A stretch of DNA of 64,000 bases from an uncultured bacterium (GTDB lineage: Bacteria; Pseudomonadota; Alphaproteobacteria; Rhodospirillales; Rhodospirillaceae). The notes under the pieces are model-generated. The model was not told where the DNA came from and ran no database searches. It saw only the letters and a program-made list of their open reading frames with translations. The position numbers and the translations under genes were made by a program. Below, one piece after another: positions 22,290 through 60,396 of the stretch (positions are counted from its first letter, which is position 1; each line of letters opens with the position of its first letter). The stretch is taken from contig CAISTS010000045.1 of NCBI GenBank assembly GCA_903888485.1, positions 1-64,000 of the forward strand, given 5' to 3'.

Positions 22290-22315
22290 GGAACAAGGCC
22301 ACTTAGCCTGGCGTT
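22290..22315 (+). promoter_or_regulatory. EcfG-type (GSR sigma) promoter, exact match
   Basis: GGAAC (22290-22294), 17-base spacer, CGTT (22312-22315). This matches the alphaproteobacterial EcfG consensus GGAAC-N16/17-CGTT exactly. It lies 52 bases before the SH3b-protein start at 22368 and marks the left border of the stress island. Confidence 0.75.
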
Positions 22316-22367
22316 TCCTTATCAACGCTGCTGATGCAGAAAATCCTTTCCTGATTGAGGCACAATA

Positions 22368-22805
22368 ATGCGCCGCGCACCTTTCATCGTCATTGGAATG
22401 CTTTCCCTGCCATTGTTCTTCACCGCAGTAGCCCAGGCCGCCAGCCCGATCCCCCAGTCCGCCGATGGCAAGCTCGCCAGCGCCGTTCAGATGCGCTCCG
22501 GACCCGGAGATGAATTCCCCGCGGTGACGCGTCTGGCCAAAAACCTCAACGTTGATATCCACGGTTGTCTCAAGAGCTGGGACTGGTGCGACGTCTCCTG
22601 GCGCGGCAACCGCGGCTGGGTGCCTGCCGAAGCCATCGACTATCGCCGCGGCGCCGAGCGCGTGTCGGTGAGGGAACATGGCAGCGAGTTGGGCGTCCCA
22701 GAGGTGACCTTCCAGATCAATTCCTATTGGGACGACCACTACAACAACCAGCTCTTCTACGGCGATCGCGAGCGCCTGCGTCAAAACGCAAGCTTCGCCC
22801 GGTAG
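22368..22805 (+). CDS. exported SH3b-domain protein
   Basis: A 145-residue protein with a Sec signal (MRRAPFIVIGMLSLPLFFTA, cleavage near AQA-A). Residues about 35-95 form a bacterial SH3 domain: VQMRSGPGDEFPAVTRL, then a DIHGCLKSWDWCDVSWRGNRGWV block with two cysteines. These domains bind cell-wall peptides. The C-terminal 45 residues are aromatic and charged without a known family. An exact EcfG promoter 52 bases upstream places it in the general stress regulon, in keeping with a role in envelope maintenance (inference). Confidence 0.82.
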   Translation: MRRAPFIVIGMLSLPLFFTAVAQAASPIPQSADGKLASAVQMRSGPGDEFPAVTRLAKNLNVDIHGCLKSWDWCDVSWRGNRGWVPAEAIDYRRGAERVSVREHGSELGVPEVTFQINSYWDDHYNNQLFYGDRERLRQNASFAR

Positions 22806-22810
22806 TTGCA

Positions 22811-22836
22811 GAAACTTCCGACGGCCCTGGAGCGTT
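22811..22836 (+). promoter_or_regulatory. weak EcfG-type promoter candidate
   Basis: GAAAC (22811-22815), 17-base spacer, CGTT (22833-22836). One mismatch in the -35 element (GAAAC for GGAAC). It lies 31 bases before the start of the 71-residue membrane protein at 22868. Confidence 0.35.
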
Positions 22837-22867
22837 TCATCGCCACAGATCGTTTCAGGAGGCCATC

Positions 22868-23083
22868 ATGCGCGTAGGTAGGTACATGGACATTACACCC
22901 GAACGTGGTTCGTCGGCGTCATCCGATCACCCGGATGCGACCAACATCACCAGGAACCCAGAAGATCTTTCGACGGACGAAATCCGCCAGGGCGTCACCG
23001 GTAACGGCGTGCGTTACGTGCTCGCCATCTCGCTGGGCGCGGCCCTCGTTGGCCTCGGCCTCGCATGGGTTCTCGTAGTCTAA
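22868..23083 (+). CDS. small single-TM membrane protein
   Basis: A 71-residue protein. The ATG at 22868 follows CAGGAGG, a near-perfect ribosome binding site. The first 45 residues are polar (RYMDITPERGSSASSDHPDA). The C-terminal 24 form one transmembrane helix (GVRYVLAISLGAALVGLGLA). No family recognised. It sits between two genes with exact EcfG promoters, has its own weak candidate, and is followed by a strong terminator, so it is probably a stress-induced inner-membrane protein. Confidence 0.65.
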   Translation: MRVGRYMDITPERGSSASSDHPDATNITRNPEDLSTDEIRQGVTGNGVRYVLAISLGAALVGLGLAWVLVV

Positions 23084-23097
23084 GCTTTACGGCAGAG

Positions 23098-23142
23098 CGC
23101 CTCCCGCACTGCGGAACAAAGCAGTGCGGGAGGCGTTTCTTT
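23098..23142 (+). terminator. strong intrinsic terminator
   Basis: Perfect 15-bp stem: CGCCTCCCGCACTGC (23098-23112) pairs with GCAGTGCGGGAGGCG (23121-23135) around the 8-base loop GGAACAAA, followed by TTTCTTT. It ends the transcript of the 71-residue protein gene. The loop and the 3' foot also form the next promoter. Confidence 0.9.
23113..23137 (+). promoter_or_regulatory. exact EcfG-type promoter embedded in the terminator hairpin
   Basis: GGAAC (23113-23117, the terminator loop), 16-base spacer, CGTT (23134-23137, the end of the 3' arm and the start of the T-run). It lies 37 bases before the csbD-like start at 23175. Confidence 0.7.
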
Positions 23143-23174
23143 GCATGTCCGCACCCAGACAAAGGAATGGTTCA

Positions 23175-23375
23175 ATGAATTGGGATCAAGTCGCCGGCAA
23201 TTGGAAGCAGATGAAGGGCAAGGTTCGCGAACAGTGGGGCGATCTCACCGACGACGACATCGACCGCATCGCAGGCAAACGCGATCAGCTCATCGGCCTC
23301 GTCCAGGAACGCTACGGCATCCAGAAGGACATCGCCGAGACGCAAGTGAAGGAATGGGAAAAGCTGCTGCATTAG
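23175..23375 (+). CDS. CsbD-family stress protein
   Basis: A 66-residue protein, the standard CsbD length. It reads MNWDQVAGNWKQMKGKVREQ, then WGDLTDDDIDRIAGKRDQLI and ERYGIQKDIAETQVKEWEK, the family pattern. CsbD proteins are small acidic/basic cytoplasmic proteins abundant under general stress in many bacteria; their mechanism is unknown. The ATG at 23175 follows AAAGGA. An exact EcfG promoter lies 37 bases upstream and a terminator 22 bases downstream, so it is a single-gene stress transcript. Confidence 0.92.
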   Translation: MNWDQVAGNWKQMKGKVREQWGDLTDDDIDRIAGKRDQLIGLVQERYGIQKDIAETQVKEWEKLLH

Positions 23376-23397
23376 GCGGCTTACCCCACCAATCCGA

Positions 23398-23434
23398 CGG
23401 GAGCGGCGAGGCCCAGCCAGCCGCTCCCGTTTTG
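23398..23434 (+). terminator. intrinsic terminator after the csbD-like gene
   Basis: CGGGAGCGGC (23398-23407) pairs with GCCGCTCCCG (23420-23429), 12-base loop, then TTTTG. It separates the csbD-like transcript from the AI-2E family gene. Confidence 0.8.
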
Positions 23435-23460
23435 CTATCTGCCTTTAGGCATCTTCTCAG

Positions 23461-24597
23461 ATGTTGCGCTCCGTAAGCACCCTCGCACTCGCGCTGCTGA
23501 TCCTGGCCAGCATTCTGGTGGCCGGCCTGATCTATGCCGCCGGCGACATCCTGGCGATGTTCTTCATCGCCTTCCTGCTGGCCTATCTGTTCGATCCTTT
23601 GGCGGGGTGGATGGAGCGCCGCGGCATTCCGCGCCCCGTCGCCGCGCTGCTCATCACCGGCGGCTTGATCGTGCTCGTTGGCGGGGCCATCGCCGTGCTG
23701 GGACCGATCGTGTACCAGGAGATGCAGGGGCTTCTGCGCAGCCTGCAATCGGCCTTCAGCGAGGGCCTTGTGCATGTGCGACGGGAACTTGTCCCCTACC
23801 TTTCGATCCTGCGCCCCCTCGGCCTCGACGGGCTTGTGCGCCAAGCGCCAGCCGCCGCCGCCAACGGCGATATCAGCAAGCCCCTGGCCTCGGTGGTCAG
23901 CGGCGGCATCGCCTTCGCCGGCACCATGGGCCTCGCGCTGCTCGCGCCCGTGGTCACCTTCTACCTCCTGAAAGATTGGCCGCGCATGCTGATCCGCGTA
24001 CTCAAGGAAGTCCCGCCGGCCAAGCGGCCGATGGTGCGCAGCCTTGCGTGCCAGATCGACGATGTGCTGTCGGCATTCATCCACGGCCAGGCCTGGGTAT
24101 GCTTGTGCGTCGGCGTAATGTACGCCGTTGGACTAGGCGTCCTCGACTTCAAGTACGGCATCGTGCTTGGCCTGATGTCCGGCGCGCTCAAGTTCCTGCC
24201 CTACGTCGGCACCGCCATTGGGCTCACGGCGACGCTTGCCACCGCCGTCAGCCAGGCAGGCTGGGACGGCTGGATTCTGGCCGGGATCGGGGCCACGTTC
24301 TTCATCGTTGAGGTGATTGAGTCCAGCATCCTGTCGCCGCGCATCATCGGCGGCCGCGTGCATATGGCGCCGGCGCTGGTGATCTTTGCGGTACTCCTGG
24401 GCGGAAAATTGCTCGGCGTTATCGGCGTGTTCATCGCCATCCCGGTCTTCGCCGTAGCGCGCGTGCTGGTCACGTTCTGGTTCCACCGCGAGCGCGAGTA
24501 CCAGCGCAGTACGCGCCAGCGCCGGATCCGCGGGCTGGGCCGCGACATCTCACCGGATCCCGGCAACAAGATCTTGATCGTGCATGGCAAGCGCTAA
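23461..24597 (+). CDS. AI-2E/PerM-family membrane transporter
   Basis: A 378-residue membrane protein with about eight hydrophobic segments. Family features are an N-terminal pair of helices (TLALALLILASILVAGLIYA, FFIAFLLAYLFDPLAGWMER), a central soluble region, and the conserved C-terminal GLMSGALKFLPYVGTAIGLT, IIGGRVHMAPALVIFAVLLG and IGVFIAIPVFAVARV. The family contains exporters of autoinducer-2 and Na+/H+-type antiporters; the substrate cannot be told. The ribosome binding site is weak. The basic tail (RERE..., RRIRGLGRDIS) is cytoplasmic. It lies inside the stress island but has no EcfG promoter of its own that I can see. Confidence 0.85.
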   Translation: MLRSVSTLALALLILASILVAGLIYAAGDILAMFFIAFLLAYLFDPLAGWMERRGIPRPVAALLITGGLIVLVGGAIAVLGPIVYQEMQGLLRSLQSAFSEGLVHVRRELVPYLSILRPLGLDGLVRQAPAAAANGDISKPLASVVSGGIAFAGTMGLALLAPVVTFYLLKDWPRMLIRVLKEVPPAKRPMVRSLACQIDDVLSAFIHGQAWVCLCVGVMYAVGLGVLDFKYGIVLGLMSGALKFLPYVGTAIGLTATLATAVSQAGWDGWILAGIGATFFIVEVIESSILSPRIIGGRVHMAPALVIFAVLLGGKLLGVIGVFIAIPVFAVARVLVTFWFHREREYQRSTRQRRIRGLGRDISPDPGNKILIVHGKR

Positions 24598-24658
24598 GGA
24601 ATTAATGCGAACCCAAGCAGTTGTGCCAAGGCCCTGCCTGCACATAGGAGAGTCTCAC

Positions 24659-24913
24659 ATGCCCACCCCACAGAAGTACGAAGGCCAAAGAAACGAAGGC
24701 GAAGGCAGCCGCTCGGCCGCCCGCGCCTACAACAAGGCCACCACGGCCTTTGCCAAGTCCGGCAAAGTCGCGCCGGCCGCCAAGGAAGCCAAGCGCGCCA
24801 TGTCCTCGAAGACCGAAGCGCGCGAGATGAAGAAGGCCGAGGAGGTCGGCAAGCGCCCGGCCAAACCGCGCTCTGGGACGAAGTCCCGCGCCAGCGCCCG
24901 CAAATCCCGCTAG
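24659..24913 (+). CDS. small lysine/alanine-rich basic protein
   Basis: An 84-residue protein starting MPTPQKYEGQRNEGEGSRSA behind a good AGGAG site. It is strongly basic, rich in K, A, R and S (AKEAKRAMSSKTEAREMKKA ... KPRSGTKSRASARKSR), and has no hydrophobic core. The C terminus looks like a histone H1-type DNA-binding tail. Such proteins are common near stress genes in alphaproteobacteria and may bind DNA or RNA; this one's role is unknown. It ends just before a bidirectional terminator shared with the PRC-barrel gene on the other strand. Confidence 0.7.
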   Translation: MPTPQKYEGQRNEGEGSRSAARAYNKATTAFAKSGKVAPAAKEAKRAMSSKTEAREMKKAEEVGKRPAKPRSGTKSRASARKSR

Positions 24914-24936
24914 CTTCGCGCGACGCAGCCAACAAA

Positions 24937-24963
24937 AAGGGCCAAGGCATTGCCTTGGCCCTT
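24937..24963. terminator. bidirectional terminator
   Basis: AAGGGCCAAGGC (24937-24948), loop ATT, GCCTTGGCCCTT (24952-24963), with A-rich sequence on the left and T-containing sequence on the right. It lies between the convergent basic-protein gene and the PRC-barrel gene. Confidence 0.8.
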
Positions 24964-24980
24964 CGCTGTTTAGGGGCCTA

Positions 24981-25370
24981 TTACTTCTGGTACGCGAACT
25001 TCGGCATGTTCTTGAGAACATCCTTTGTGGCACCTGGCATCACGGCCTTCTCCTGCGTCAGTTCGACGCCTTCGAACGGCACGGCCACGAGCTTATCGCC
25101 CATGCCGAGGAAGCCGCCCACCGAAACGATGGCGTAAACCACCTTGTCGTTGCGGTTGACGATCAGGTCGTCGATCACGCCGACCTTCTCGTCCGTTTCG
25201 TTGTAGACCGGCGCACCCATCAGCTTGCTGCCGCGAAAGCCCGTCGAGACGCTGGTGACGTCGACTTTGTAACGCGCAATCGTCTGCGGCACGCCCTGGG
25301 CGCCGACGGCAATGGGGATTAGCGGAATGGCTGCGATAAGGCCAAAGGCCAGGAACAATTCCTTCGTCAT
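24981..25370 (-). CDS. exported PRC-barrel domain protein
   Basis: A 129-residue protein starting at the ATG at 25370 (MTKELFLAFGLIAAIPLIPI), which gives a clean signal peptide (cleavage near VGA-Q). A longer frame to 25484 exists but loses the signal. Residues about 45-115 form a PRC-barrel: LMGAPVYNETDEKVGVIDDL, VYAIVSVGGFLGMGDKLVAV and PFEGVEL. In alphaproteobacteria exported PRC-barrel proteins are typical members of the GSR regulon. An exact EcfG promoter lies 42 bases upstream. The function of the family in stress is unknown. Confidence 0.85.
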   Translation of the reverse strand: MTKELFLAFGLIAAIPLIPIAVGAQGVPQTIARYKVDVTSVSTGFRGSKLMGAPVYNETDEKVGVIDDLIVNRNDKVVYAIVSVGGFLGMGDKLVAVPFEGVELTQEKAVMPGATKDVLKNMPKFAYQK

Positions 25371-25411
25371 GTCATCACCTAAAAGACGTAAGAGGATGAG
25401 TTCGAAGGAAT

Positions 25412-25437
25412 AACGCGCGTACGAAACCGGGTGTTCC
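25412..25437 (-). promoter_or_regulatory. exact EcfG-type promoter for the PRC-barrel gene
   Basis: On the minus strand: GGAAC (25437-25433), 17-base spacer, CGTT (25415-25412), 42 bases before the ATG at 25370. It directly abuts the 3' end of nepR. Confidence 0.75.
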
Positions 25438-25440
25438 GGT

Positions 25441-25773
25441 TTAGGTCTTGCCGTCCTTTTTATCGTCGCGCGTCTTTTCGTCAAGGCGCTCGAGCAGCTT
25501 CACGAGGTCCGGGGGCAGGGGTTCTGCAGCCACGGCATCGAACATGGTGTGGAGCTTGCTCTCGAGCCAAACGTCAAAGGCGGGATTACTCTTCACGGCA
25601 TCCTTTTCCGCGCGCGCCTTTTCAGGCTTCGGCGCGCGCGGCGCGGTTTTTGTGGGCGGTTTCTCATTCATGGTGGAACGAAGCTGCTCGACAACGGTGC
25701 CCTTGCGGGCGACCGGGCCTTGGATTTCATCGTCAATTGCCGCGAGGGCGGCATTTACGACACTGATGCACAT
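25441..25773 (-). CDS. nepR: NepR-family anti-sigma factor
   Basis: A 110-residue form from the ATG at 25773; an internal ATG at 25671 would give 76 residues, closer to the usual NepR size. The C-terminal half carries the NepR core: FDVWLESKLHTMFDAVAAEP followed by LPPDLVKLLERLDE, matching the W/L..KL..(Y/F)D.V..EP.P pattern. NepR holds EcfG inactive until phosphorylated PhyR pulls it away. The N-terminal part is rich in K, P, E and A, as in the family. It begins 37 bases downstream of ecfG on the same strand, so ecfG comes first here, whereas the common arrangement is nepR-ecfG. The start choice is uncertain: a GGGGGA site precedes the upstream ATG. Confidence 0.82.
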   Translation of the reverse strand: MCISVVNAALAAIDDEIQGPVARKGTVVEQLRSTMNEKPPTKTAPRAPKPEKARAEKDAVKSNPAFDVWLESKLHTMFDAVAAEPLPPDLVKLLERLDEKTRDDKKDGKT

Positions 25774-25810
25774 CCTAGTCCCCCACCGCGGGGTAAGCCA
25801 ATCGTCTTGG

Positions 25811-26383
25811 CTAGGTCCACGCAACGTGATCGGTGGTATCGGCCGATCTGGTCGAACGAGGAGTCTCGTCCTCGATCTCCCTTGAGCTTTCCTTGGGAGC
25901 GTCTTCGCCCATGACCAGGGCCGACATGCGGGCGCGGGCGCGCCACAGGCGGCTCTTGATGGTACCAATAGAGCATCCCAGAGATTCCGCCGCTTCCTCG
26001 TAGCTAAGGCCGCTGGCGCAGATCAGGATCAATACTTCGCGCTGCTCGGGCTGAAGCTTGCCCATGGCATGGACGACTTCGCGCGACAGAATGTCGTTTT
26101 CCTGCGCGCCGGTGCGCGACAGGAACTCTTCCGGCACCTCGTCGAGGCGCGCCGGCTTGCGCTTATTACGGCGCAGGCTGCTGATGTATTCGTTGCGAAG
26201 GATCTTATAGATCCAGGCTGTAAAGTTCGTGCCGATCGCGAATTGCGACTGCGCGCGCCATGCCTTTAATGCGGTCTCTTGCAGAAGATCTTCGGCTGCG
26301 GCGCGATCGCGCGTGAGCATTACGGCATAGGCCTGCAGACGCGGCATGTGCGTAAGCAACATTTCTTGGAATTGATCAGCCAT
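25811..26383 (-). CDS. ecfG: EcfG-type RNA polymerase sigma factor (general stress response)
   Basis: A 190-residue ECF sigma factor. The ATG at 26383 follows AGGAG. Region 2 reads MPRLQAYAVMLTRDRAAAED, LLQETALKAWRA and FTAWIYKILRNEYISSLRRN; region 4 reads LICASGLSYEEAAESLGCSI, GTIKSRLWRARARM. The sequence and its pairing with nepR and phyR identify it as the alphaproteobacterial general stress sigma factor, which directs polymerase to GGAAC-N16/17-CGTT promoters. It has such a promoter itself (26421-26445), so it is autoregulated. The C-terminal 25 residues (KESSREIEDETPRSTRSADT) are an unstructured extension. Confidence 0.93.
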   Translation of the reverse strand: MADQFQEMLLTHMPRLQAYAVMLTRDRAAAEDLLQETALKAWRAQSQFAIGTNFTAWIYKILRNEYISSLRRNKRKPARLDEVPEEFLSRTGAQENDILSREVVHAMGKLQPEQREVLILICASGLSYEEAAESLGCSIGTIKSRLWRARARMSALVMGEDAPKESSREIEDETPRSTRSADTTDHVAWT

Positions 26384-26420
26384 AACGAACTCCTGACAAT
26401 TTACGACCCGGCGGATAATC

Positions 26421-26445
26421 AACGCGGCACGGGGGGTGAAGTTCC
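26421..26445 (-). promoter_or_regulatory. exact EcfG-type promoter of ecfG (autoregulation)
   Basis: On the minus strand: GGAAC (26445-26441), 16-base spacer, CGTT (26424-26421), 37 bases before the ecfG ATG. Autoregulation of ecfG is the norm in GSR loci. Confidence 0.8.
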
Positions 26446-26576
26446 ATCGCGGTTACGGATCCGACCGCTAAGTCCCGAAAATTCCTGGAAATTATTACCT
26501 AGGGGTATGATTTTAAACCGAGTTATCAACCTTAGATGGACAATGGCTTAAGGCTCGTGACCGCACATTGCCAATC

Positions 26577-26602
26577 GGAACATCGCAAGCGGCCCTGGCG
26601 TT
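26577..26602 (+). promoter_or_regulatory. exact EcfG-type promoter of the 95-aa protein gene
   Basis: GGAAC (26577-26581), 17-base spacer, CGTT (26599-26602), 36 bases before the ATG at 26639. It is divergent to the ecfG promoter, about 130 bases away. Confidence 0.78.
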
Positions 26603-26638
26603 CCCTTGGCGAACATAACAAACCCGAGAGTGCTCTTC

Positions 26639-26926
26639 ATGACACATCAACTGGCCGTCAAAGCGGCCAAGACCAACCCCAGCAAGTACTTCCACACCCC
26701 CCAAGAAGTGCTGGTACATCCGACACTTAGCCGCGAAAACAAAATCGAAATCCTGCGCCAGTGGGAGGCCGATGCGCGCCTGATGTCGGTCGCCGAAGAA
26801 GAGAACATGACCGGTGGCGAGCATGGTCATCTGGGTGCCGTTGTCAGCGCCCTGATCGCTTTGGACGATGAAAAGAAGCGCCCGGACACCGACACCGGCA
26901 CCGGGCCCGCCAAGACCGGTGGTTAG
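26639..26926 (+). CDS. conserved GSR-locus hypothetical protein
   Basis: A 95-residue soluble protein, MTHQLAVKAAKTNPSKYFHT and on. The central part, LSRENKIEILRQWEADARLM then SVAEEENM, is a pattern I know from small uncharacterised alphaproteobacterial proteins (a K/Q-I-xIL-R-Q-W-E core followed by an acidic AEEENM). The ATG at 26639 is preferred over one at 26606 because the exact EcfG promoter lies 36 bases before it. The C terminus is polar and disordered. Function unknown; the promoter and the location between ecfG and phyR make it a direct GSR target. Confidence 0.75.
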   Translation: MTHQLAVKAAKTNPSKYFHTPQEVLVHPTLSRENKIEILRQWEADARLMSVAEEENMTGGEHGHLGAVVSALIALDDEKKRPDTDTGTGPAKTGG

Positions 26927-26964
26927 TACGCCTCTGCCGGGTGAAAATTTTTTAGTGCCTGGCC

Positions 26965-26989
26965 GGAACAATGGCCCGGGGGCGGCGTT
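26965..26989 (+). promoter_or_regulatory. exact EcfG-type promoter reading into a gene-free region
   Basis: GGAAC (26965-26969), 16-base spacer, CGTT (26986-26989). No credible coding start follows; transcription would run through 27000-27280 to the strong terminator. Confidence 0.72.
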
Positions 26990-26994
26990 ATGCG

Positions 26995-27284
26995 CCTGTC
27001 GGTCTGATCCAAACCAGGGATCGGTTTGGGGCGGAAAACCATCGCCGGAAAACCATCGCAACGTAAATCCACGAGGAGACGAAGTCGATCCAGCCGCTCT
27101 GGAATGATGACGATCTTCCAAGAGGTCTGAGACGACGCGAGATCAAGGAATCCCCTTTCGACGTATGCAATCCCGACCGTCCCCCCAGCCAGCGTACGTC
27201 GTTACCTCCGCAATTGCCCCCAGTTGCGGAAACAATGTCCCTCCCGCGAAGCGAAAATCGCTTCGCGGGAGGAGACGTTTTTTA
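26995..27284 (+). ncRNA. candidate EcfG-dependent small RNA
   Basis: Bounded by an exact EcfG promoter and a strong intrinsic terminator, with no convincing ORF between. Local structure includes a 5' hairpin CCAAACC-AGGGATC-GGTTTGG (27009-27029), two perfect tandem copies of a 14-mer (27032-27059), a hairpin closed by CCGCAA/TTGCGG (27208-27229) whose loop carries CCCCC, and the terminator stem. C-rich single-stranded patches (27176-27186, 27216-27221) could pair with G-rich ribosome binding sites, as in known alphaproteobacterial stress sRNAs such as GsrN. The length (about 290 nt) and 5' end are estimates. One frame (27067-27285) is open but has no start codon. Confidence 0.55.
27240..27284 (+). 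terminator. strong intrinsic terminator of the candidate sRNA
   Basis: CCTCCCGCGAAGCG (27240-27253), loop AAAAT, CGCTTCGCGGGAGG (27259-27272), a perfect 14-bp stem, followed by AGACG and TTTTTT (27278-27283). Confidence 0.88.
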
Positions 27285-27526
27285 GAGACGCCTAGATATC
27301 GCGGATACTGTGGAACGAATTCATGTGAGTAGTGGCTCCACCAAAATGTTCCCGGACTGCACATAAAAAAATGCCCATCACGTCTGCCGCCGTGTGATGT
27401 TCTCAAACGTTGCTTCTGTTAGGATCACCGCTCAATACGTGTTCATCCGGTGAGCCTGTTTTTCAATCACACATGGGACTCTGCCGCGCGCGCCGGTCTT
27501 TTGTGCTTAGGGAAGGGGATACCCTG

Positions 27527-27910
27527 ATGTCGCTATCTCAAGAAATTGCCCAGCACCTTCCGCTTCTGCGCCGCTATGCGCGCGCGCTCGCCGGTACGCA
27601 AAGTGGCGGTGACGCTTATGTGCGCGCGGCGCTCGAAGCCATTATTCAGGCCCCCGATCAATTTCCGCGCGGCGTGCCGCCGCGGGTGGGGCTATACCGC
27701 ACGTTCCACGTGATCTGGTCGGCCACGCATACGCTCCCGACGGGTCCGAACGGCGAGCTCGAAGCCTGCCGATTCCGCGACCGGCTCGATGCGCTTTCCA
27801 TGACGCGCCGCCAGGCGCTGCTGCTGACGGCCATGGAAGATTTCTCCAACAACGAAGGGGCGATCATTCTCGGCCTGTCGCCGGAAGACGTCACGCGCAT
27901 GGTCAAATAA
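27527..27910 (+). CDS. phyR: PhyR, sigma-like N-terminal domain (ORF ended by premature TAA)
   Basis: 127 residues from the ATG at 27527 (GGAAGGGG upstream). The sequence MSLSQEIAQHLPLLRRYARA, LAGTQSGGDAYVRAALEAII, GLYRTFHVIW.. and the region-4-like block MTRRQALLLTAMEDFSNNEG, AIILGLSPEDVTRMV are the sigma-factor mimic that binds NepR. The ORF stops at TAA (27908-27910), yet the same frame continues directly into the receiver domain (next entry). A single C-to-T change (CAA to TAA) or a base-call error explains it. If real, the product is an isolated NepR-binding domain without its inhibitory receiver. The divergent arrangement to ecfG is typical of GSR loci. I see no exact EcfG promoter before it. 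Confidence 0.85.
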   Translation: MSLSQEIAQHLPLLRRYARALAGTQSGGDAYVRAALEAIIQAPDQFPRGVPPRVGLYRTFHVIWSATHTLPTGPNGELEACRFRDRLDALSMTRRQALLLTAMEDFSNNEGAIILGLSPEDVTRMVK

Positions 27911-28363
27911 GCGCTTTACGACCTGGTCGCCCAGGTGCCGATCTCGGTATTGATCATCGAAGATGAACCCGTGATCTCCATGGACCTCTCCAACATCGTC
28001 GAGGAGATGGGCCACGAAGTGGTCGCCACCGCGACGACCCGCAAGGAAGCCGTCGCCGCCGCGAAACAGCATCGCCCCGGCCTTGTGCTGGCCGATATCC
28101 AGCTCGCCGACAACAGCTCGGGCATTGATGCGGTCAACGAGATCCTCGCTGCCATGACGGCACCGGTGATCTTCATCACCGCTTATCCGGAACGCCTGCT
28201 TACCGGCGAGCGCCCGGAGCCGACCTTCCTCGTCACCAAGCCGTTCATGACCGACACCGTCAAAGCGACCATCGCTCAGGCGCTGCTGCTCGCCGAAGAC
28301 GCAGACGCGGGGCTGGGACTGCGTGCGGGCAAGTCCGTCGGCGCCAGCCGCCTCGTCAGCTAA
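27911..28363 (+). CDS. phyR: PhyR, receiver domain (separated from the N-terminal part by a stop codon)
   Basis: In frame with the preceding ORF: after the TAA the frame reads ALYDLVAQVPISVLIIEDEP and on through a complete response-regulator receiver: acidic pocket IEDEP, phospho-acceptor Asp in LVLADIQLAD, switch region PVIFITAYPERLLTG, and TFLVTKPF with the conserved Lys. TAYPERLLTGERPEPTFL is diagnostic of PhyR. The only candidate start is GTG at 27935, which has no ribosome binding site and would remove little of the receiver. The end (28363) is followed by a hairpin. Whether a separate receiver is made is unknown. A normal PhyR would be about 277 residues, exactly what the two parts add up to. 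Confidence 0.8.
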   Translation, partial: ALYDLVAQVPISVLIIEDEPVISMDLSNIVEEMGHEVVATATTRKEAVAAAKQHRPGLVLADIQLADNSSGIDAVNEILAAMTAPVIFITAYPERLLTGERPEPTFLVTKPFMTDTVKATIAQALLLAEDADAGLGLRAGKSVGASRLVS

Positions 28364-28387
28364 CTGCCGCAGATTTAGCGCACCCAC

Positions 28388-28423
28388 ATCGGCCCGGCTG
28401 GCGACAGCCGGGCCGATTGCTTT
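28388..28423 (+). terminator. putative terminator after phyR
   Basis: ATCGGCCCGGCTG (28388-28400), loop GCGA, CAGCCGGGCCGAT (28405-28417), followed by TGCTTTC. The stem is perfect at 13 bp; the T-run is short. Confidence 0.7.
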
Positions 28424-28512
28424 CGCGCGCGCTGTTTTCGGAGACTGCCATCGCTACTTGCATCGGGGCGCCAGGAATTTCAGTGCAATACGCGCAAGAG
28501 CCGGAGAACGCT

Positions 28513-28537
28513 GGAACATCCTTTCGCCGCGGGAGTT
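28513..28537 (+). promoter_or_regulatory. EcfG-type promoter with one mismatch
   Basis: GGAAC (28513-28517), 16-base spacer, AGTT (28534-28537; consensus CGTT). It lies 44 bases before the entericidin-like gene at 28582. Confidence 0.5.
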
Positions 28538-28581
28538 TTCCCTTCGCGTAACCTGGTGTTTCACTGCGAAGGAATTTTGCC

Positions 28582-28731
28582 ATGTCTGAGAAGAAAACCC
28601 CCGCCTTTGTCATGCTGATCTCCGCTCTCGTGTTGTCGGCGCTCGCCGCCTGCAACACCACCGCCGGAATTGGCCGCGACGTCGAGTCCGTCGGCGATGC
28701 GATCGAAGATTCGGCCGAAAGCGCGAAGTAA
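28582..28731 (+). CDS. entericidin-like small lipoprotein
   Basis: 49 residues: MSEKKTPAFVMLISALVLSA, then LAAC as lipobox with the lipidated Cys at residue 24, then NTTAGIGRDVESVGDAIEDS. The mature peptide NTxxGIGRDVxxxGxAIxxxA is the hallmark of the entericidin A/B family, tiny stationary-phase or stress-induced lipoproteins. An AAGGA site precedes the ATG. A near-consensus EcfG promoter lies upstream. It is followed by two further stress genes on the same strand (DUF1328, superoxide dismutase). Confidence 0.85.
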   Translation: MSEKKTPAFVMLISALVLSALAACNTTAGIGRDVESVGDAIEDSAESAK

Positions 28732-28797
28732 TCCGTCCGTTCGATAGGGAGCGTGGCCGCTCCGCGGTCACGGTCCAACCATTTCAGGAGCGATGTC

Positions 28798-28977
28798 ATG
28801 TTGGGTTGGGCTCTCACGTTCTTGGTCATTGCGTTGATCGCCGGCGTGTTTGGTTTCGGCGGCATCGCCGTGGCGTCCGTGGAAATCGCCAAGGTGCTGT
28901 TCTTCATCTTCCTGGCGGTGTTCCTGGTGACGCTGCTGATCCACGTTATGCGCAGCCGCACCCCGCCGGTTTCGTAA
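28798..28977 (+). CDS. DUF1328-family small membrane protein
   Basis: 59 residues, [20 protein letters not shown] and on. The family pattern is MLGWAxTFLxIALIAxxFGF, GIA...xxIAKxLFFxFLxxF. There are two transmembrane helices and a short cytoplasmic tail with RSRTPP. The ATG at 28798 follows AGGAG; a GTG at 28753 would add a non-family extension. The family is widespread in Proteobacteria near stress genes; function unknown. Ten bases separate it from the superoxide dismutase gene, so they are probably co-transcribed. Confidence 0.85.
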
Positions 28978-28987
28978 GGAGCGTCTC

Positions 28988-29638
28988 ATGACCAAGCCAG
29001 CCTTACGCGCCGTGCCGAGCGCGCCATCCGGTCCATTTACCTTGCCGCCGCTGCCCTATCCCGAGAGTGCGCTGGAGCCGGTGATCTCGGCCCGCACGCT
29101 TTCTTTCCACCAAGGCAAGCATCACAAGGCCTATATCGACAAGTTGAACGCGGCCGTGGCCGGCACGCCCTATGCCGAGATGGACTTGCTCGCCGTGGTT
29201 AAAAAGACCTGCGGCCGTGAGGCGAAGAAATCCATCTTCAACAACGCCGCTCAGACCTGGAACCATACGTTCTATTGGCACAGCCTTTCGCCGGCGAAGA
29301 CCGAGATGGACAAAAAGTTGTCCGCCGCGGTCACGGGCGATTTCGGCAGCCTTGAAGCGCTGCAGCAGCTGCTAACCAAGGTCGCGACCGAACACTTCGG
29401 CAGCGGCTGGGCCTGGCTAGTGGTCAAGGACGGCAAGCTGCAGGTGGTTGATACCCACGATGCCGACACCCCGGCGGCGCACGGTGCCACATGCCTGCTC
29501 ACCGTCGATGTCTGGGAACACGCTTACTATCTCGACCGGCAAAACGACCGCAACGCCTACGCTGAGGCGGTGGTGAAGAAGCTGCTTAATTGGTCTTTCG
29601 CGTCAGACAACTTCGCGAGGGCCCAAGCCAGCGCGTAA
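28988..29638 (+). CDS. sodB: superoxide dismutase, Fe/Mn family
   Basis: A 216-residue cytoplasmic enzyme that dismutes superoxide to peroxide and oxygen. Family landmarks: FTLPPLPYPESALEPVISAR, the metal-ligand His in LSFHQGKHHKAYIDKLN, NNAAQTWNHTFYWHSLSP (second His), FGSGWAWLVV and the ligand pair DVWEHAYYLDRQNDR. The residues following the second His (HTFYW) fit the iron type, but iron and manganese forms cannot be separated safely by eye. The N terminus carries about 17 extra residues (MTKPALRAVPSAPSGP) compared with typical SodB. A GGAG site precedes the ATG and a strong terminator follows. Confidence 0.92.
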   Translation: MTKPALRAVPSAPSGPFTLPPLPYPESALEPVISARTLSFHQGKHHKAYIDKLNAAVAGTPYAEMDLLAVVKKTCGREAKKSIFNNAAQTWNHTFYWHSLSPAKTEMDKKLSAAVTGDFGSLEALQQLLTKVATEHFGSGWAWLVVKDGKLQVVDTHDADTPAAHGATCLLTVDVWEHAYYLDRQNDRNAYAEAVVKKLLNWSFASDNFARAQASA

Positions 29639-29643
29639 AAGAG

Positions 29644-29670
29644 AAACGCCCGCCCGATCGGCGGGCGTTT
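29644..29670. terminator. bidirectional terminator between sodB and the DUF3309 gene
   Basis: AAACGCCCGCC (29644-29654), loop CGATC, GGCGGGCGTTT (29660-29670). A-run on one side and T-run on the other serve both convergent genes. Confidence 0.88.
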
Positions 29671-29688
29671 GTGCTTTAAGTCGATGCT

Positions 29689-29844
29689 TTAGACGCGGCC
29701 GGCCAATACCAGAATGATCACGACAATCAGTACGATGCCCAGGGTACCGCTGGGCATATAACCCCAGCTGCGGCTGTGAGGCCACGTCGGCAGGGCGCCG
29801 AGCAGCATGAAGATCAACAGGATCAACAGAATAGTGCCTAACAT
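29689..29844 (-). CDS. DUF3309-family small membrane protein
   Basis: 51 residues: MLGTILLILLILLIFMLLGA, LPTWPHSRSWGYMPSGTLGI and a second hydrophobic segment ending LAGRV. The W-P-H/Y-S-R-x-W-GY-xPSG-xLG core between two membrane helices is the DUF3309 signature. The gene is very short and easily missed. The ATG at 29844 follows AAGGAG. It converges on sodB and shares its terminator. An EcfG-like promoter (29895-29920) lies 51 bases upstream. The function of the family is unknown. Confidence 0.85.
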   Translation of the reverse strand: MLGTILLILLIFMLLGALPTWPHSRSWGYMPSGTLGIVLIVVIILVLAGRV

Positions 29845-29894
29845 AGGAAGCTCCTTGTGCTCCGTGTGCGGCCACGCGGCCGCCTCTTACCGTA

Positions 29895-29920
29895 AACAAG
29901 GCTCGGTAACGTATTGTTCC
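29895..29920 (-). promoter_or_regulatory. EcfG-type promoter with one mismatch, for the DUF3309 gene
   Basis: On the minus strand: GGAAC (29920-29916), 17-base spacer, TGTT (29898-29895; consensus CGTT). It is divergent to the exact promoter at 29971. Confidence 0.45.
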
Positions 29921-29970
29921 GATTTCGCTATGGGCCTGTAACAGCACAACTGAACCGCCACACCGGCGCG

Positions 29971-29995
29971 GGAACTTTCCAGTCGGGTTCGCGTT
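29971..29995 (+). promoter_or_regulatory. exact EcfG-type promoter of the DUF883-like gene
   Basis: GGAAC (29971-29975), 16-base spacer, CGTT (29992-29995), 86 bases before the ATG at 30082. It probably drives the three-gene run 30082-31563. Confidence 0.75.
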
Positions 29996-30081
29996 CTAAG
30001 GATAGCGCCGGGACGCGCCGTCGGCCTTTCGTGCCGCGGCGGTCGCCGCGCGCAGCTTTTTTAGTTCCCAGGAAGGCCACC

Positions 30082-30378
30082 ATGGAAAATCCCATCAAGA
30101 AATCTGACCTCGACGCCATCACCGCCGACATAGAGCGTCTGAGGAAAGACTTCACGCGCACCATGGAGCACGTGAAGTCCGGCGCGCTCAACGCCGGAGG
30201 CAATCTGGCTGACTCTGTCACCGACGAAGCCGCCGAGCTCTATGGCCTCATGGCCAAGAAGGGTGAGCGCACCGCCAAGGCCATCGGCAAGCAGATCGAA
30301 GACCAGCCCATCACAAGCCTGCTGATCGCCTTCACCGCCGGCTTCTTCATCAGCCGCCTGACGGACCGGCACCACTAG
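30082..30378 (+). CDS. DUF883/ElaB-like membrane-anchored protein
   Basis: A 98-residue protein starting MENPIKKSDLDAITADIERL behind AGGAAGG. A long amphipathic helix is followed by a C-terminal hydrophobic anchor (ITSLLIAFTAGFFISRLTDR). The overall plan (K/D/E-rich helix, Q-P preceding one TM segment with G/F residues, short basic end) matches the ElaB/YqjD/DUF883 group, inner-membrane proteins that in E. coli bind stationary-phase ribosomes. An exact EcfG promoter lies upstream, so it is very likely a GSR target. First gene of a run with the next two. Confidence 0.75.
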   Translation: MENPIKKSDLDAITADIERLRKDFTRTMEHVKSGALNAGGNLADSVTDEAAELYGLMAKKGERTAKAIGKQIEDQPITSLLIAFTAGFFISRLTDRHH

Positions 30379-30402
30379 TCTCGCGCGGCTGTGGCCGGTG
30401 CG

Positions 30403-30825
30403 ATGATGGAAAGCATCCTTAAAATTGCGCTGATGTTCTTGGCCGACCGACGGGGTGGTGAGCCCTCCGCGGGCACCCGCATCACCGCCGGGGCGGTTTG
30501 CACGGCTCTCGCCGTCATGACGCTCGTGACGGGAATCGGCTGCGGCACGGCCGCCTTATGGATTTTCCTGATCCCGCGCGTCGGCGAGGCGACGGCCGCG
30601 CTCACCGTCGCGGCTGTTTTCCTGGTCTCCAGCGGCGTGCTGATGCTGGTGGCGCGCAGCATGTTTCAGCCCGATGAGGCCGAGCAAGAAGAGGCGCCGG
30701 GCCTTGCCGATATCGGCGAGGAATTGTTCGAAAAGCTGTGCGAGGGGCTGGGCGCCAACAAAAGCGCTGTGATTATGGCGGCGCTCGTAGCCGGGTTGCT
30801 TGCCGGTCGGGCCACCAAGAAGTAG
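30403..30825 (+). CDS. holin-superfamily-like membrane protein
   Basis: A 140-residue protein with two membrane helices (ITAGAVCTALAVMTLVTGIG continuing into a G/A-rich segment, and ALTVAAVFLVSSGVLMLVAR) and a soluble C-terminal helix ending in a small hydrophobic stretch (IMAALVAGLLAGRATKK). The two-helix core resembles phage-holin-superfamily or YqjE-type proteins, which often sit beside ElaB/YqjD-like genes. The start is uncertain: ATG at 30403 or GTG at 30391, neither with a good ribosome binding site. It is 24 bases after the DUF883-like gene and 6 bases before the next. Confidence 0.6.
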   Translation: MMESILKIALMFLADRRGGEPSAGTRITAGAVCTALAVMTLVTGIGCGTAALWIFLIPRVGEATAALTVAAVFLVSSGVLMLVARSMFQPDEAEQEEAPGLADIGEELFEKLCEGLGANKSAVIMAALVAGLLAGRATKK

Positions 30826-30831
30826 GCTTCG

Positions 30832-31563
30832 GTGCTCCGTGCTCACGCCAATCGGACCGTTGATTTTCCACTGATCACCACAGCCCGCTCACCGCAGCTC
30901 AAGAATTTTGCGCACAACCACGTGCTGCATGTGCTGATCGCCGCCTTTGCGGTGCTGTGGGTGTGGAGCGCGATCAACCCCGCTGAAACGCACACCTGGC
31001 TGCTGGAGAATATCCTCGTCGTCGCCGGCATCGCGGGCGGTGTGTGGGTCGTGCGCAATCAGCCGCTGTCGGATGTCTCCTATTTGCTGTGCGCGGGATT
31101 CTTGATGCTGCACGTCGTCGGTTCGCACTACACCTATTCGCTGGTGCCTGCGGGTGAGTGGATGAAGGACGCCTTCGGCTTTGAGCGCAATCATTACGAC
31201 AGGATCATTCACTTCGGCTTCGGCTTCTTGTTGTTGTATCCCTTGCGTGAACTTCTAGTGCGGTTGAAGGCCTTTGGTGGACGCTGGCCCGGCTTTATCG
31301 CATTTCTGTTCATCAGCACGGCGAGCGGGGCATACGAACTCATGGAGTGGCTGGCCGCGGTGCTTGTCGATCCCAAAGCCGGAACGGCGTTCCTGGGTAC
31401 GCAGGGCGACGAATTCGATAGCCAGAAGGATCACGCACTGGCCTGCGGCGGCGCGCTCATTACCATGGTCGTGACGCGTCTTGCGGAAGGAACAGCGCGC
31501 GCCGCTGATTCGGCTTCCGCGCGCAGAGCCGGAAGAACTCGCGCACTGCGCGCCTTATCTTAA
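30832..31563 (+). CDS. DUF2238 (YjdF-like) membrane protein
   Basis: A 243-residue membrane protein with about six helices. Family hallmarks: LLCAGFLMLHVVGSHYTYSL, ERNHYDRIIHFGFGFLLLYP, ASGAYELMEWLAAVL and TQGDEFDSQKDHALACGGAL. The conserved His, Tyr, Asp and Glu residues in the membrane helices are all present (HVVGSHYTY, HYDRIIHF, YELMEW, GDEFDSQKD). The function is unknown. The start is the GTG at 30832, six bases after the preceding stop, so it is the third gene of the EcfG-driven run. The last 25 residues are Arg/Ala-rich and probably disordered. Confidence 0.82.
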   Translation: MLRAHANRTVDFPLITTARSPQLKNFAHNHVLHVLIAAFAVLWVWSAINPAETHTWLLENILVVAGIAGGVWVVRNQPLSDVSYLLCAGFLMLHVVGSHYTYSLVPAGEWMKDAFGFERNHYDRIIHFGFGFLLLYPLRELLVRLKAFGGRWPGFIAFLFISTASGAYELMEWLAAVLVDPKAGTAFLGTQGDEFDSQKDHALACGGALITMVVTRLAEGTARAADSASARRAGRTRALRALS

Positions 31564-31568
31564 AATTA

Positions 31569-31594
31569 GGAACGATTTCCGTAGCGGGGTCGTT
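31569..31594 (+). promoter_or_regulatory. exact EcfG-type promoter of the BON-domain gene
   Basis: GGAAC (31569-31573), 17-base spacer, CGTT (31591-31594), 51 bases before the ATG at 31646. Confidence 0.78.
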
Positions 31595-56845: not shown

Positions 56846-58452
56846 TTCTCGATCCGCATCCAGCGGGTGCGGTTCACGTCGGCGGCGTTGTCAGCAAAAC
56901 CCTTGATGTAAGGCGCGACCAGGTTCTTTGAGCTGAAGAAGCTGAGCGGCACGACGGCGCTGTCGTCGAGCGCGGTCTGTTCGGCGCGCGAGAGAATATC
57001 GGCGCGCTTGATGAGATCGAGCGTAAAGCGGCCTTCGTCCACCAACTTGTCGTAGGTGGCGCTGCTGTATCCGCCGTAGTTATAGGACCCGGCTCGGGTT
57101 TCCAGCAGGAACAGGAAAGTCTGCGGATCGTTGAAGTCAGCGCCCCAACGCGCCTGGGCGGCGAAGAAGTCGGCGGCGCGCACCTGGTCATAGTGCACCT
57201 TCGGTTCGTTGCCGATCAGACGCACGACCATGTTGCATTCCTTCAGCATCGCCGCCTGCGCCACCACCGAACGGCGGGAGTCGATACTGATCATGTAGAG
57301 GTATTCGAACGCCAACGGCTTGCCGGGGCCAAAGCCCGCCTCGGTCAGCAGCCGTTTCGCCTCCGTGCGGCGCTCCTCCATGGTGCGGCCCGCGAAATCG
57401 AGTTTCGCCGCGTTGGCATAGTTATCAATGCCCGGCGGCACGAAGGAGTAGGCCGGGACCTGGCCATCGCGCGAGACCTTGTCGGTCAGCACGCCCCGGT
57501 CGAGACAGAGCGAGACCGCGCGGCGCAGGCGGGCGTCCGAGAACGGCGCGCGGCGGATATTCAGCACGATGTACTCGCTGCCCAGCATGGGCGTGATGCG
57601 CGCCTGGCCGGGCATGTTTTCCTTCAGCCAGGGGATTTGGCTGCTGGGAAAGCCGCGTGTGCCCAGGTTCACATCCAGCTCGCCCGCGCGGAAACGGTTG
57701 AGCGCGGCATTGGTGTCGTCGGTCGGATAGTAGATCACCTCGTCGATGGCGACATTGGCGGCGTCATAGAAGAAGGGGTTCTTCACGGCCTTGATGTGCT
57801 CATGGGCTTTCCATTCGACCAGCTTGAAGGGACCGTTGGACACCATGTTGCCGGCTTTCACCCAATCGGCGCCGAACTTCTCAACAACGTGCCGGGGTAT
57901 GGGATAGGAGGTCTGGTGGGTAAGAAGTCCGAGCAGGTAAGGCGTCGGTGTCTCGAGGGTGATCTCCAAGGTACGCGCGTCTAGCGCGCGTACGCCGATC
58001 TGGTCCAGCGGCACCTTGCCGCCGTTGGCGGCTTCGGCATTCTTGATGACATAGAGGACCGAAGCGTAGATCGCAGCGGTCTTGGGATCCAGCAGGCGGT
58101 TGATACCGGCCACAAAATCAGCCGCTGTGAGGGGCGTACCGTCGGACCACACCAGGTCCGGGCGCAGCGTGAAGGTCCACACCAAGCCGTCGGGACTGGT
58201 TGTCCAGCGCTCGGCGGCGCCGGCGACCGGTTTGCCGGCGACATCCTCGGTGGCCAGGCCCAGAAACAAGTCGCCGATGACGGCGTTTTCCCAGGCAAGG
58301 CTGGAAAGTTGCGGGTCGAGAGTGCCGGGTTCGGCTTGGTTGCCCCGGCGCAGAACCATGGCCGCATCGGCCGGAGCCGCCGTCAGCAGCACAAGGCCGG
58401 TCAGGAGAAGTGCGGCGGCGTGCCGCAGGGGTCTTTTGGAGCCCGTCGTCAT
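56842..58452 (-). CDS. periplasmic oligopeptide-binding protein (SBP family 5, OppA-like)
   Basis: A 536-residue solute-binding protein with a signal peptide (cleavage near ADA-A). Family 5 features: GNQAEPGTLDPQLSSLAWEN, LVWTFTLRPDLVWSDGTPLT, AADFVAGINRLLDPKTAA, the VSNGPFKLVEWKAHEHIKAV block, and IYYPTDDTNAALNRFRAGEL. It binds peptides in the periplasm for an ABC importer, but the permease and ATPase genes are not adjacent. It precedes and overlaps the DUF3445 gene. The motif set matches OppA of peptide transport rather than nickel or dipeptide forms. Confidence 0.88.
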   Translation of the reverse strand: MTTGSKRPLRHAAALLLTGLVLLTAAPADAAMVLRRGNQAEPGTLDPQLSSLAWENAVIGDLFLGLATEDVAGKPVAGAAERWTTSPDGLVWTFTLRPDLVWSDGTPLTAADFVAGINRLLDPKTAAIYASVLYVIKNAEAANGGKVPLDQIGVRALDARTLEITLETPTPYLLGLLTHQTSYPIPRHVVEKFGADWVKAGNMVSNGPFKLVEWKAHEHIKAVKNPFFYDAANVAIDEVIYYPTDDTNAALNRFRAGELDVNLGTRGFPSSQIPWLKENMPGQARITPMLGSEYIVLNIRRAPFSDARLRRAVSLCLDRGVLTDKVSRDGQVPAYSFVPPGIDNYANAAKLDFAGRTMEERRTEAKRLLTEAGFGPGKPLAFEYLYMISIDSRRSVVAQAAMLKECNMVVRLIGNEPKVHYDQVRAADFFAAQARWGADFNDPQTFLFLLETRAGSYNYGGYSSATYDKLVDEGRFTLDLIKRADILSRAEQTALDDSAVVPLSFFSSKNLVAPYIKGFADNAADVNRTRWMRIEK

Positions 58453-58539
58453 GGTTAAAGCCTACCTCAAAACCATGTGTGCAAACCACACGGCGTGGCG
58501 TCTCCCGGCGCGCAAAATGATGTATGGTGAGGCCACGTT

Positions 58540-60396
58540 TTGAGGCCAGCCTTGTTACATCCACTCCCTCGCCGCCGTTTGCTTGCCGCTGCCACCGCCT
58601 TCGGTGGCCTGGCGGGGATGCGCCCATTCTTTTTTCGTCCGGCGCGCGCGGCCGATGACGACACCGCGGCGACGCAGCGGTTCAATGGCTGGCTGGAGGC
58701 GCGCTACGACTTCTGGCTCGGCCGCAGCCCCATGGCGCAGGGTTACCTGGGTCTCAAGACCGACGCCGACAAATGGGACGACATCAGCGAGGCGCACCAG
58801 CTCGAGGATCACGCGCGCGTGCGGCAGGAACTCGCCGACCTACGCGATGCCTTCCATCCGAACACGCTTTCGTCTGCCGGAAAGCTCAGCTTCGATCTCT
58901 ATGTGCGCCGCTGCGAGACGCTGATGGAGGCGCACGCCTGGCGCCGCCACCGCTTTCCAGTCAACCAGTTGAGCGGCTGGCAGCAGGAGATCCCCGGCTT
59001 CCTGATGAACATCCACCGCGTCGAAAGCCGCGAAGATGCCGAGGCCTATATCGCGCGGCTGTCGAGCGTTGACGTTCTCGTGACGCAAGTCATCGACCAG
59101 ATGCGCCGCGGCGAGACCGCCGGCGTGCTTGCGCCGCGTTTTGCCTATACCGCCGTACTGCGCGATTGCCGCAATGTGCTGGCCGGCGCGCCCTTCGACG
59201 GCAGCCTGCGCGGCGATAGTCCGATCTGGGCCGACATCAAGGGTAAGATCGACGCGCTAGACGCCGATGCGATCGTGAAGGAAGCCCTGCGCGCGGCGGC
59301 GTTGCGTGCGCTGGTGACGGTGCTGCGTCCGGCGTTCTACGCGCTAATTGCCGTTTGCCAGGAGCAGGAGACGCGCGCCGGCACCGATGATGGCGTCTGG
59401 CGTCTGCCCGCCGGTGAGGCCTACTACACCCACGCTGTGCGCACGCATACCACCATCGACATGTCCCCCGCCGATATTCACGCCTTTGGCTTATCCGAAG
59501 TCGCGCGCCTGCATGGCGAGATGCGCGCCATCATGCGGGGACTTGGTTTTACCGGCGACCTCGCGGCGTTTTTTACGTTCCTGCGCACGGACCCTCGGTT
59601 CCACTATCCGCAGTCGCCTGAAGGCAAGGCCGCCTACATCGCGCGAGCCCAGGAGATCGTCGCTGGCATGACGGCGCGGCTTGACGAAGTGTTCCTGCGC
59701 AAGCCGCGCGCGGGCCTCGTGGTCAAACCGGTCGAAGCCTTCCGCGAGCAGTCGGCGACAGCCGCATTCTATCAAGGTCCCGGCGCCTTCGACGACCGGC
59801 CCGGCACCTACTACGTCAACACTTTCGACATGACGGTCATGTCGACTTTCGAGATGGAGAGCTTGGCCTATCACGAGGCCATTCCCGGCCATCATATGCA
59901 GATCGCCATCGCCCAGGAGACCGACGCGCTTCCGCGCTTCCGCCGCTTCGCCAGCAACACCGCTTACGACGAAGGCTGGGGCCTTTACTGCGAGCGCCTG
60001 GGCAAGGAGATGGGCTTCTTCCAGGATCCCTATTCGGATTTCGGACGGCTGGCGTCCGAACTCTGGCGCGCCTGCCGCCTGGTGGTCGATACCGGCATCC
60101 ACATGGCCGACAAGCGCTGGACGCGCGGGCAGGCGATCGCCTATCTCACCGAGAACACGCCCAACGTCGCCGGCGATATCGCCAATTCGGTCGAGCGCTA
60201 CATCGTCGATCCCGGCCAGGCGACGGCCTACACCATCGGCATGGCGAAGATTCTCGAATTGCGCGCCGGCGCACAGGAGCGCTTGGGCGCCAAGTTCGAC
60301 CTGCGCGGTTTCCACGAAACCGTGCTTGCGGGTGGCTCGATGCCGTTGCCTGTGCTTCAGAACGTGATAGAGACCTGGGTCAGCGAGAATGTCTGA
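58540..60396 (+). CDS. DUF885-family metallopeptidase-like exported protein
   Basis: A 618-residue protein. The N terminus has a twin-arginine/Sec-like leader (PLPRRRLLAAATAFGGLAGM, then ARA-A). Residues about 410-500 hold the metal-site motif HEAIPGHHMQIA, with SLAYHEAIPGHH, FRRFASNTAYDEGWGLYCER and GRLASELWRACRLVVDTGIH, all typical of DUF885. The HExxxGH arrangement suggests a zinc peptidase, but activity in the family is barely known. The start is uncertain: TTG at 58540 (GGTGAGG upstream) or TTG at 58552, no ATG. Its 3' end overlaps the GNAT gene, convergent. Confidence 0.87.
   Translation: MRPALLHPLPRRRLLAAATAFGGLAGMRPFFFRPARAADDDTAATQRFNGWLEARYDFWLGRSPMAQGYLGLKTDADKWDDISEAHQLEDHARVRQELADLRDAFHPNTLSSAGKLSFDLYVRRCETLMEAHAWRRHRFPVNQLSGWQQEIPGFLMNIHRVESREDAEAYIARLSSVDVLVTQVIDQMRRGETAGVLAPRFAYTAVLRDCRNVLAGAPFDGSLRGDSPIWADIKGKIDALDADAIVKEALRAAALRALVTVLRPAFYALIAVCQEQETRAGTDDGVWRLPAGEAYYTHAVRTHTTIDMSPADIHAFGLSEVARLHGEMRAIMRGLGFTGDLAAFFTFLRTDPRFHYPQSPEGKAAYIARAQEIVAGMTARLDEVFLRKPRAGLVVKPVEAFREQSATAAFYQGPGAFDDRPGTYYVNTFDMTVMSTFEMESLAYHEAIPGHHMQIAIAQETDALPRFRRFASNTAYDEGWGLYCERLGKEMGFFQDPYSDFGRLASELWRACRLVVDTGIHMADKRWTRGQAIAYLTENTPNVAGDIANSVERYIVDPGQATAYTIGMAKILELRAGAQERLGAKFDLRGFHETVLAGGSMPLPVLQNVIETWVSENV

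Follow-up and report, generated by a model that had tools for sequence, protein, structure and literature searches.

The phyR reading frame and the position of its stop codon

The locus raises the question of whether a stop codon inside phyR leaves the general stress response of its bearer switched off, permanently on, divided between two proteins, or unaffected because the codon is an error or is read through. In the window, by which is meant the whole stretch of 64,000 nucleotides analysed, translation of 27527-28363 on the plus strand gives 127 residues, a TAA at 27908-27910, 150 residues in the same frame and a terminal TAA at 28361-28363. The first TAA is codon 128 of phyR; the frame is open on both sides of it, and beyond it carries no further lesion. 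The features of this frame are as follows.

27527..27910, plus strand: 5′ part of phyR, sigma-like domain, 127 residues, ended by TAA (Pfam PhyR_sigma2 E 1.9e-25; PhyR_sigma-like E 1.3e-11)
27881..27928, plus strand: codons for residues 119-134, the final sigma4-like helix, interrupted by the stop (from an AlphaFold2 model of the closest homologue that is intact)
27908..27910, plus strand: in-frame TAA, codon 128 (translation; relatives' codons)
27911..28363, plus strand: 3′ part of phyR, comprising the end of the sigma-like helix, the linker and the receiver domain (Response_reg E 3.7e-15)
27935..28363, plus strand: candidate ORF for a separate receiver, starting at GTG and having no signal of a ribosome site (ORF list; duplex energy)

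The initial annotation had reported the in-frame TAA at 27908-27910 and had regarded the two halves as together making up one PhyR; the first statement is borne out by translation and the second by the Pfam matches of both parts. The N-terminal sigma-like domain is present with sigma2 and sigma4 parts, the sigma4-like part being incomplete (positions 2-40 of the 50 in the PhyR_sigma-like profile). The C-terminal receiver is present with candidates for the acceptor Asp and Lys, D190 and K238, in invariant columns, as is T218. From receiver domains in general, D190 is presumed to be the phospho-acceptor Asp, and the role of K238 is assumed likewise. Domain order and families are those of solved PhyR structures (3n0r, 4g97, 5uxw, 9by5), and a profile built from the read-through translation of the window and nine relatives matches 3n0r at E 1.1e-96. 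The window differs from them in its one TAA codon, so that standard translation gives no single polypeptide holding both domains, a sequence error being possible.

The stop had been placed between the two domains, and here the annotation did not hold. AlphaFold2 was used to model the nearest intact homologue (alignment of 45 rows; mean pLDDT 78.7, pTM 0.76), and Foldseek gives Brucella PhyR 4g97 as the best match of the model. Residue 128 lies in it within helix 119-134, the last helix ahead of the receiver; an earlier model, in which X stood for the stop codon, had a mean pLDDT of 59.3 and was set aside. Sigma4 is given as helices 5-7 of the sigma-like domain in the available part of PMC12148442. 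By the model, the final sigma4-like helix lacks its second half, residues 128-134, in the predicted 127-residue piece. In the structures 2lfw and 3t0y, isolated sigma-like domains of PhyR were solved together with NepR; like the piece of the window, these constructs are N-terminal sigma-like domains without a receiver. They extend, however, to profile positions 137 and 132, which are window residues 138 and 133 since profile numbering is window numbering minus one, whereas the window piece stops at 127.

Origin and rarity of the stop

Among the seven relatives of the same genus with phyR, the codon equivalent to 128 is GAA in six and GGC in one. A CAA-to-TAA change, proposed earlier as the origin of the stop, is thereby ruled out, no relative having CAA or Gln there. 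As GAA prevails, the stop is most simply explained by a change of G to T in the first base, 27908, and not of C to T.

A search of the class (E 1e-40 or better, at most six candidates scored per genome, the window's own genome included, a few matches partial) gave 73 PhyR matches in 64 of 385 genomes, and the only one with a stop was phyR of the window. In the order, searched at E 1e-20 or better with at most eight candidates scored per genome, two of 34 matches in 30 of 317 genomes contained a stop, the other being a receiver-only partial match in G203, interrupted by TAG. An interruption private to one genome, next to intact orthologues, is the pattern of a pseudogene or a recent nonsense allele. 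A protein search of the window's own genome, a draft about 91% complete, gave no second phyR as a stand-in. The sigma-like half of PhyR has one match there, and NepR likewise one; nothing else scored above 54 bits with PhyR_sigma2, against 90.3 for phyR itself.

A separate receiver or readthrough

A whole receiver ORF does begin at GTG 27935, 24 bases past the stop, and the receiver is still constrained (see below), as would be needed if reinitiation gave a sigma-like piece and a receiver acting together as two proteins. Past the stop, no other ATG, GTG or TTG comes ahead of the receiver's first strand; an internal TTG lies within that strand. Its ribosome-site score of -2.7 kcal/mol, however, equals the background median of -2.7, compared with -7.9 for the start of phyR, so that a start codon is present and a signal for it is absent; moreover, two relatives whose phyR is intact, G015 and G006, have this GTG too, and there it encodes Val. 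The stop falls inside a helix and not at a domain border, and 0 of the 72 other matches of the class search are interrupted by a stop. A lone receiver beside the PhyR pathway has likenesses in SdrG and MrrA, described in the accessible parts of PMC5898713 and PMC5964349, respectively, as single-domain response regulators of the general stress response. The receiver of the window differs from these in being the 3′ part of phyR, without a start signal of its own. A split phosphorelay switch with a separately made receiver, as had been suggested for this locus, is thus unsupported and is judged very improbable.

Equally little probability is given to the TAA being read through or suppressed often enough for a working full-length PhyR. 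Such readthrough would fit a frame that is open and constrained past the stop, but phyR itself ends in TAA (28361-28363), which argues that TAA is not simply recoded, and there is no tRNA gene in the 64-kb window.

The neighbouring genes and promoter motifs

Next to phyR are nepR and ecfG, which run divergent to it, as expected of a PhyR locus. The sequence GGAAC-N16/17-CGTT is taken here to be the EcfG-type promoter consensus.

25441..25671, minus strand: nepR, anti-sigma factor, intact, single match in the genome (NepR E 4.8e-6)
25811..26383, minus strand: ecfG, general stress sigma factor, intact (Sigma70_r2 and r4_2)
26421..26445, minus strand: EcfG-type promoter motif GGAAC-N16-CGTT upstream of ecfG (motif scan)
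26577..26602, plus strand: EcfG-type promoter motif GGAAC-N17-CGTT ahead of the small gene (motif scan)
26639..26926, plus strand: small gene between ecfG and phyR, conserved in relatives (ORF; comparison with relatives), with no Pfam match

The window contains 10 copies of the motif, where 20 mononucleotide shuffles had 0.75 on average. Eight of the 10 strict motifs lie within 22290-31594, around ecfG, phyR and superoxide dismutase, a clustering in the sequence that suggests a local stress regulon. Across the whole genome 95 motifs were counted, and as this is not above the 117 of a control pattern, the genome-wide count does not tell whether the response is alive or dead.

The PhyR-NepR-EcfG module across the genus

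The module is described in abstracts as conserved in Alphaproteobacteria. Its state was surveyed in 19 genomes of the genus, the window's own included, the relatives being drafts. Uninterrupted phyR together with ecfG and nepR matches was found in 5 of the 19 (G001, G002, G003, G007 and G012). What is new here is the genus context: as read from the assemblies, the module is damaged in 6 of the 19 genomes (the window's own, G016, G011, G008, G015 and G006) by six different lesions, which are a stop in phyR, three deletions that differ in their breakpoints and two ecfG frameshifts.

In G016, window place 26805 is joined straight to 31333 by a 4.5-kb in-contig deletion that takes phyR (L198 1331-1614); its nepR and ecfG are intact, the TGA in nepR being the terminal codon (ORF 144-464). 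The small gene (place 26922) lies no more than about 520 bases from the cysN match (place 32110) in G011, with no phyR between them (L244 822-1622), and nepR and ecfG are kept at the end of another contig. In G008, 25822 is joined to 31680, ecfG and phyR being gone and nepR kept (L201 8722-9024). Genome searches gave no PhyR match elsewhere in these three. An intact phyR is found in both G015 (L150) and G006 (L202). A 4-base deletion in ecfG of G015 shifts the frame after residue 151 of 190, so late in the protein that it might be tolerated, and ecfG of G006 has a 4-base deletion near codon 28 and a further deletion of 33 bases. G010 and G014 keep nepR and ecfG, and were not counted as phyR losses because their contigs end beside the phyR place (for G010 the gap is 26808 to 29108 in window terms). 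No nepR or phyR match was obtained in G004, G005, G009, G013, G017 and G018, three of which are less than 90% complete. Some of the lesions in the draft relatives may be assembly faults.

Motifs similar to that upstream of ecfG in the window were present upstream of ecfG in G016, which is without phyR, and in G006, where ecfG is broken; the ecfG stretch fetched for G011 had no motif of the strict form. As they are kept in G016 and G006 despite the lesions, the motifs do not track module function here, and either these two losses happened recently or a different sigma factor uses the motifs.

As controls, the adjacent genes cysN and cysD were read in 16 of the 19 genomes (G009, G017 and G018 left out; only part of cysD for G014), and neither a premature stop nor a break of the frame turned up in them. 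Stops in the cysN alignments of G011 and G001 fall within the last 14 aligned residues and were taken as protein ends. Being housekeeping genes, cysN and cysD bear on assembly quality more than on selection; they are probably under stronger selection than the stress switch and hence a lenient control. On a cysND tree of 15 genomes, the presence of phyR requires five changes, three of them forced by well-supported branches, a count inflated by absences in drafts and by the scoring of G010 as lacking phyR, which there may simply be missing from the assembly. Branching inside the group of seven to which the window belongs is poorly resolved on this tree.

At least two genomes of the genus keep ecfG and nepR without phyR. 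If the lesions are confirmed by reads, the genus would form a natural series in which to ask at what point and for what reason a bacterium abandons its stress switch, and whether EcfG works without PhyR. In the literature searched, which covered few subscription papers, no account of natural phyR nonsense alleles or of loss of the module was found; PMC5023240, in the part available, names phyR solely in a reference.

Consequence for the stress response

With relatives damaged in other ways, the stop of the window looks like one more loss and not like a new kind of switch. The explanation preferred, with modest confidence, is a recent nonsense change in phyR which would leave EcfG bound by NepR and would add one more loss to those of a repeatedly damaged PhyR-NepR-EcfG module. 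A single recent change would have turned the GAA of relatives into TAA. The receiver and the sigma-like domain would thereby be physically unlinked and the last sigma4-like helix shortened. Without full PhyR, phosphorylation would no longer free EcfG from NepR; NepR would hold EcfG, and the general stress response would be off or weak.

The opposite outcome is that the free sigma-like piece folds and binds NepR without control by the receiver, EcfG being permanently free. Initial models, summarised in PMC12148442, in which phosphorylation of the receiver opens PhyR so that NepR binds the sigma-like domain, would favour this; the same paper also reports newer work that has NepR binding before phosphorylation. 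Constitutive activity is described in PMC5898713 for a PhyR mutant altered where the two domains meet, and ecfG, nepR and the EcfG-type motifs of the window are intact, all of which would agree with an always-on response. The piece is, however, cut inside a helix whose end, residues 128-134, is included in the constructs solved with NepR, and an off response is what the lesions in the five damaged relatives are expected to give. For these two reasons a response that is off is preferred over one that is on, and the always-on outcome is considered unlikely. The direction is thus probably off, as far as the sequences tell. A broader form of the always-on reading takes the stop as a natural wild allele, whose receiver-free piece would always hold NepR and keep the response permanently active, in a genus where the module has been dismantled in various ways; it is regarded as decidedly unlikely.

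Selection and sequence quality

Compared with the nearest relative, G015, the sigma-like half has a dN/dS of 0.077 and the receiver one of 0.080. The corresponding values (sigma-like/receiver) are 0.153/0.125 against G006, 0.200/0.051 against G002 and 0.380/0.151 against G012, while pairs without the window range from 0.050 to 0.253 in the sigma-like half and from 0.011 to 0.234 in the receiver (one receiver value incalculable), all these values being rough since synonymous distances are near saturation. As 0.380 is the highest value obtained, a slight relaxation of the sigma-like half is possible. Private changes of the window at otherwise invariant columns number two in the sigma-like half and none in the receiver, inside the range of the other seven sequences. 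Both halves therefore still look constrained, which means that the stop is recent or an error, or that the parts still work. Taken with intact ecfG, nepR and EcfG-type promoter motifs, this constraint leaves nothing to show a long-standing loss.

That the TAA arose by base-calling, assembly or mixing of strains, and that the organism has a normal PhyR, is somewhat unlikely. The genome is a draft of 89 contigs with a completeness of 90.84 and a contamination of 3.49, the difference is one base, the sequence on either side of it is under constraint and not clearly decaying, and TAA interrupts no other PhyR match; each of these speaks for an error. On the other side, the window was compared with the fetched stretch of G015 over 33 non-overlapping gene matches, one of them outside the syntenic block, with stops read from the best alignments so that some frameshifts would escape. 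Stops were present in two alignments, one of which is phyR. The other, at 58114-60393, has its stops ahead of the conserved part, in an over-extended 5′ stretch antisense to the neighbouring gene, and with this ORF set aside phyR is the sole interrupted gene of the 33. Relatives also have different lesions of the same module and none in the control genes read, which again argues against error and for the recent nonsense change preferred above.

Related genes in the same genome and in other taxa

Two further clusters with ECF sigma factors were observed in the window's own genome. One (L250 3311-7392, contig C55) encodes a PAS-containing HisKA_2 kinase, a single-domain receiver and a sigma factor of the ECF family that shares 44% identity with EcfG. 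In the other (L251 2748-4845, contig C61), a single-domain receiver is paired with an ECF sigma factor that has 40% identity to EcfG across the part that matches.

Two metagenome assemblies titled Candidatus Marinimicrobia (L038 and L040) contain phyR genes 84% and 72% identical to that of the window's genome, and with such identities these titles look wrong. In records titled Peristeroidobacter soli and Steroidobacter sp. (L089 and L092), phyR stands beside an ecfG match (42% identity) and a nepR match (36-38%). Peristeroidobacter and Steroidobacter belong to the Gammaproteobacteria. The matches in these records stand against the exclusivity of EcfG to the Alphaproteobacteria, as it is put in the available part of PMC3892343.
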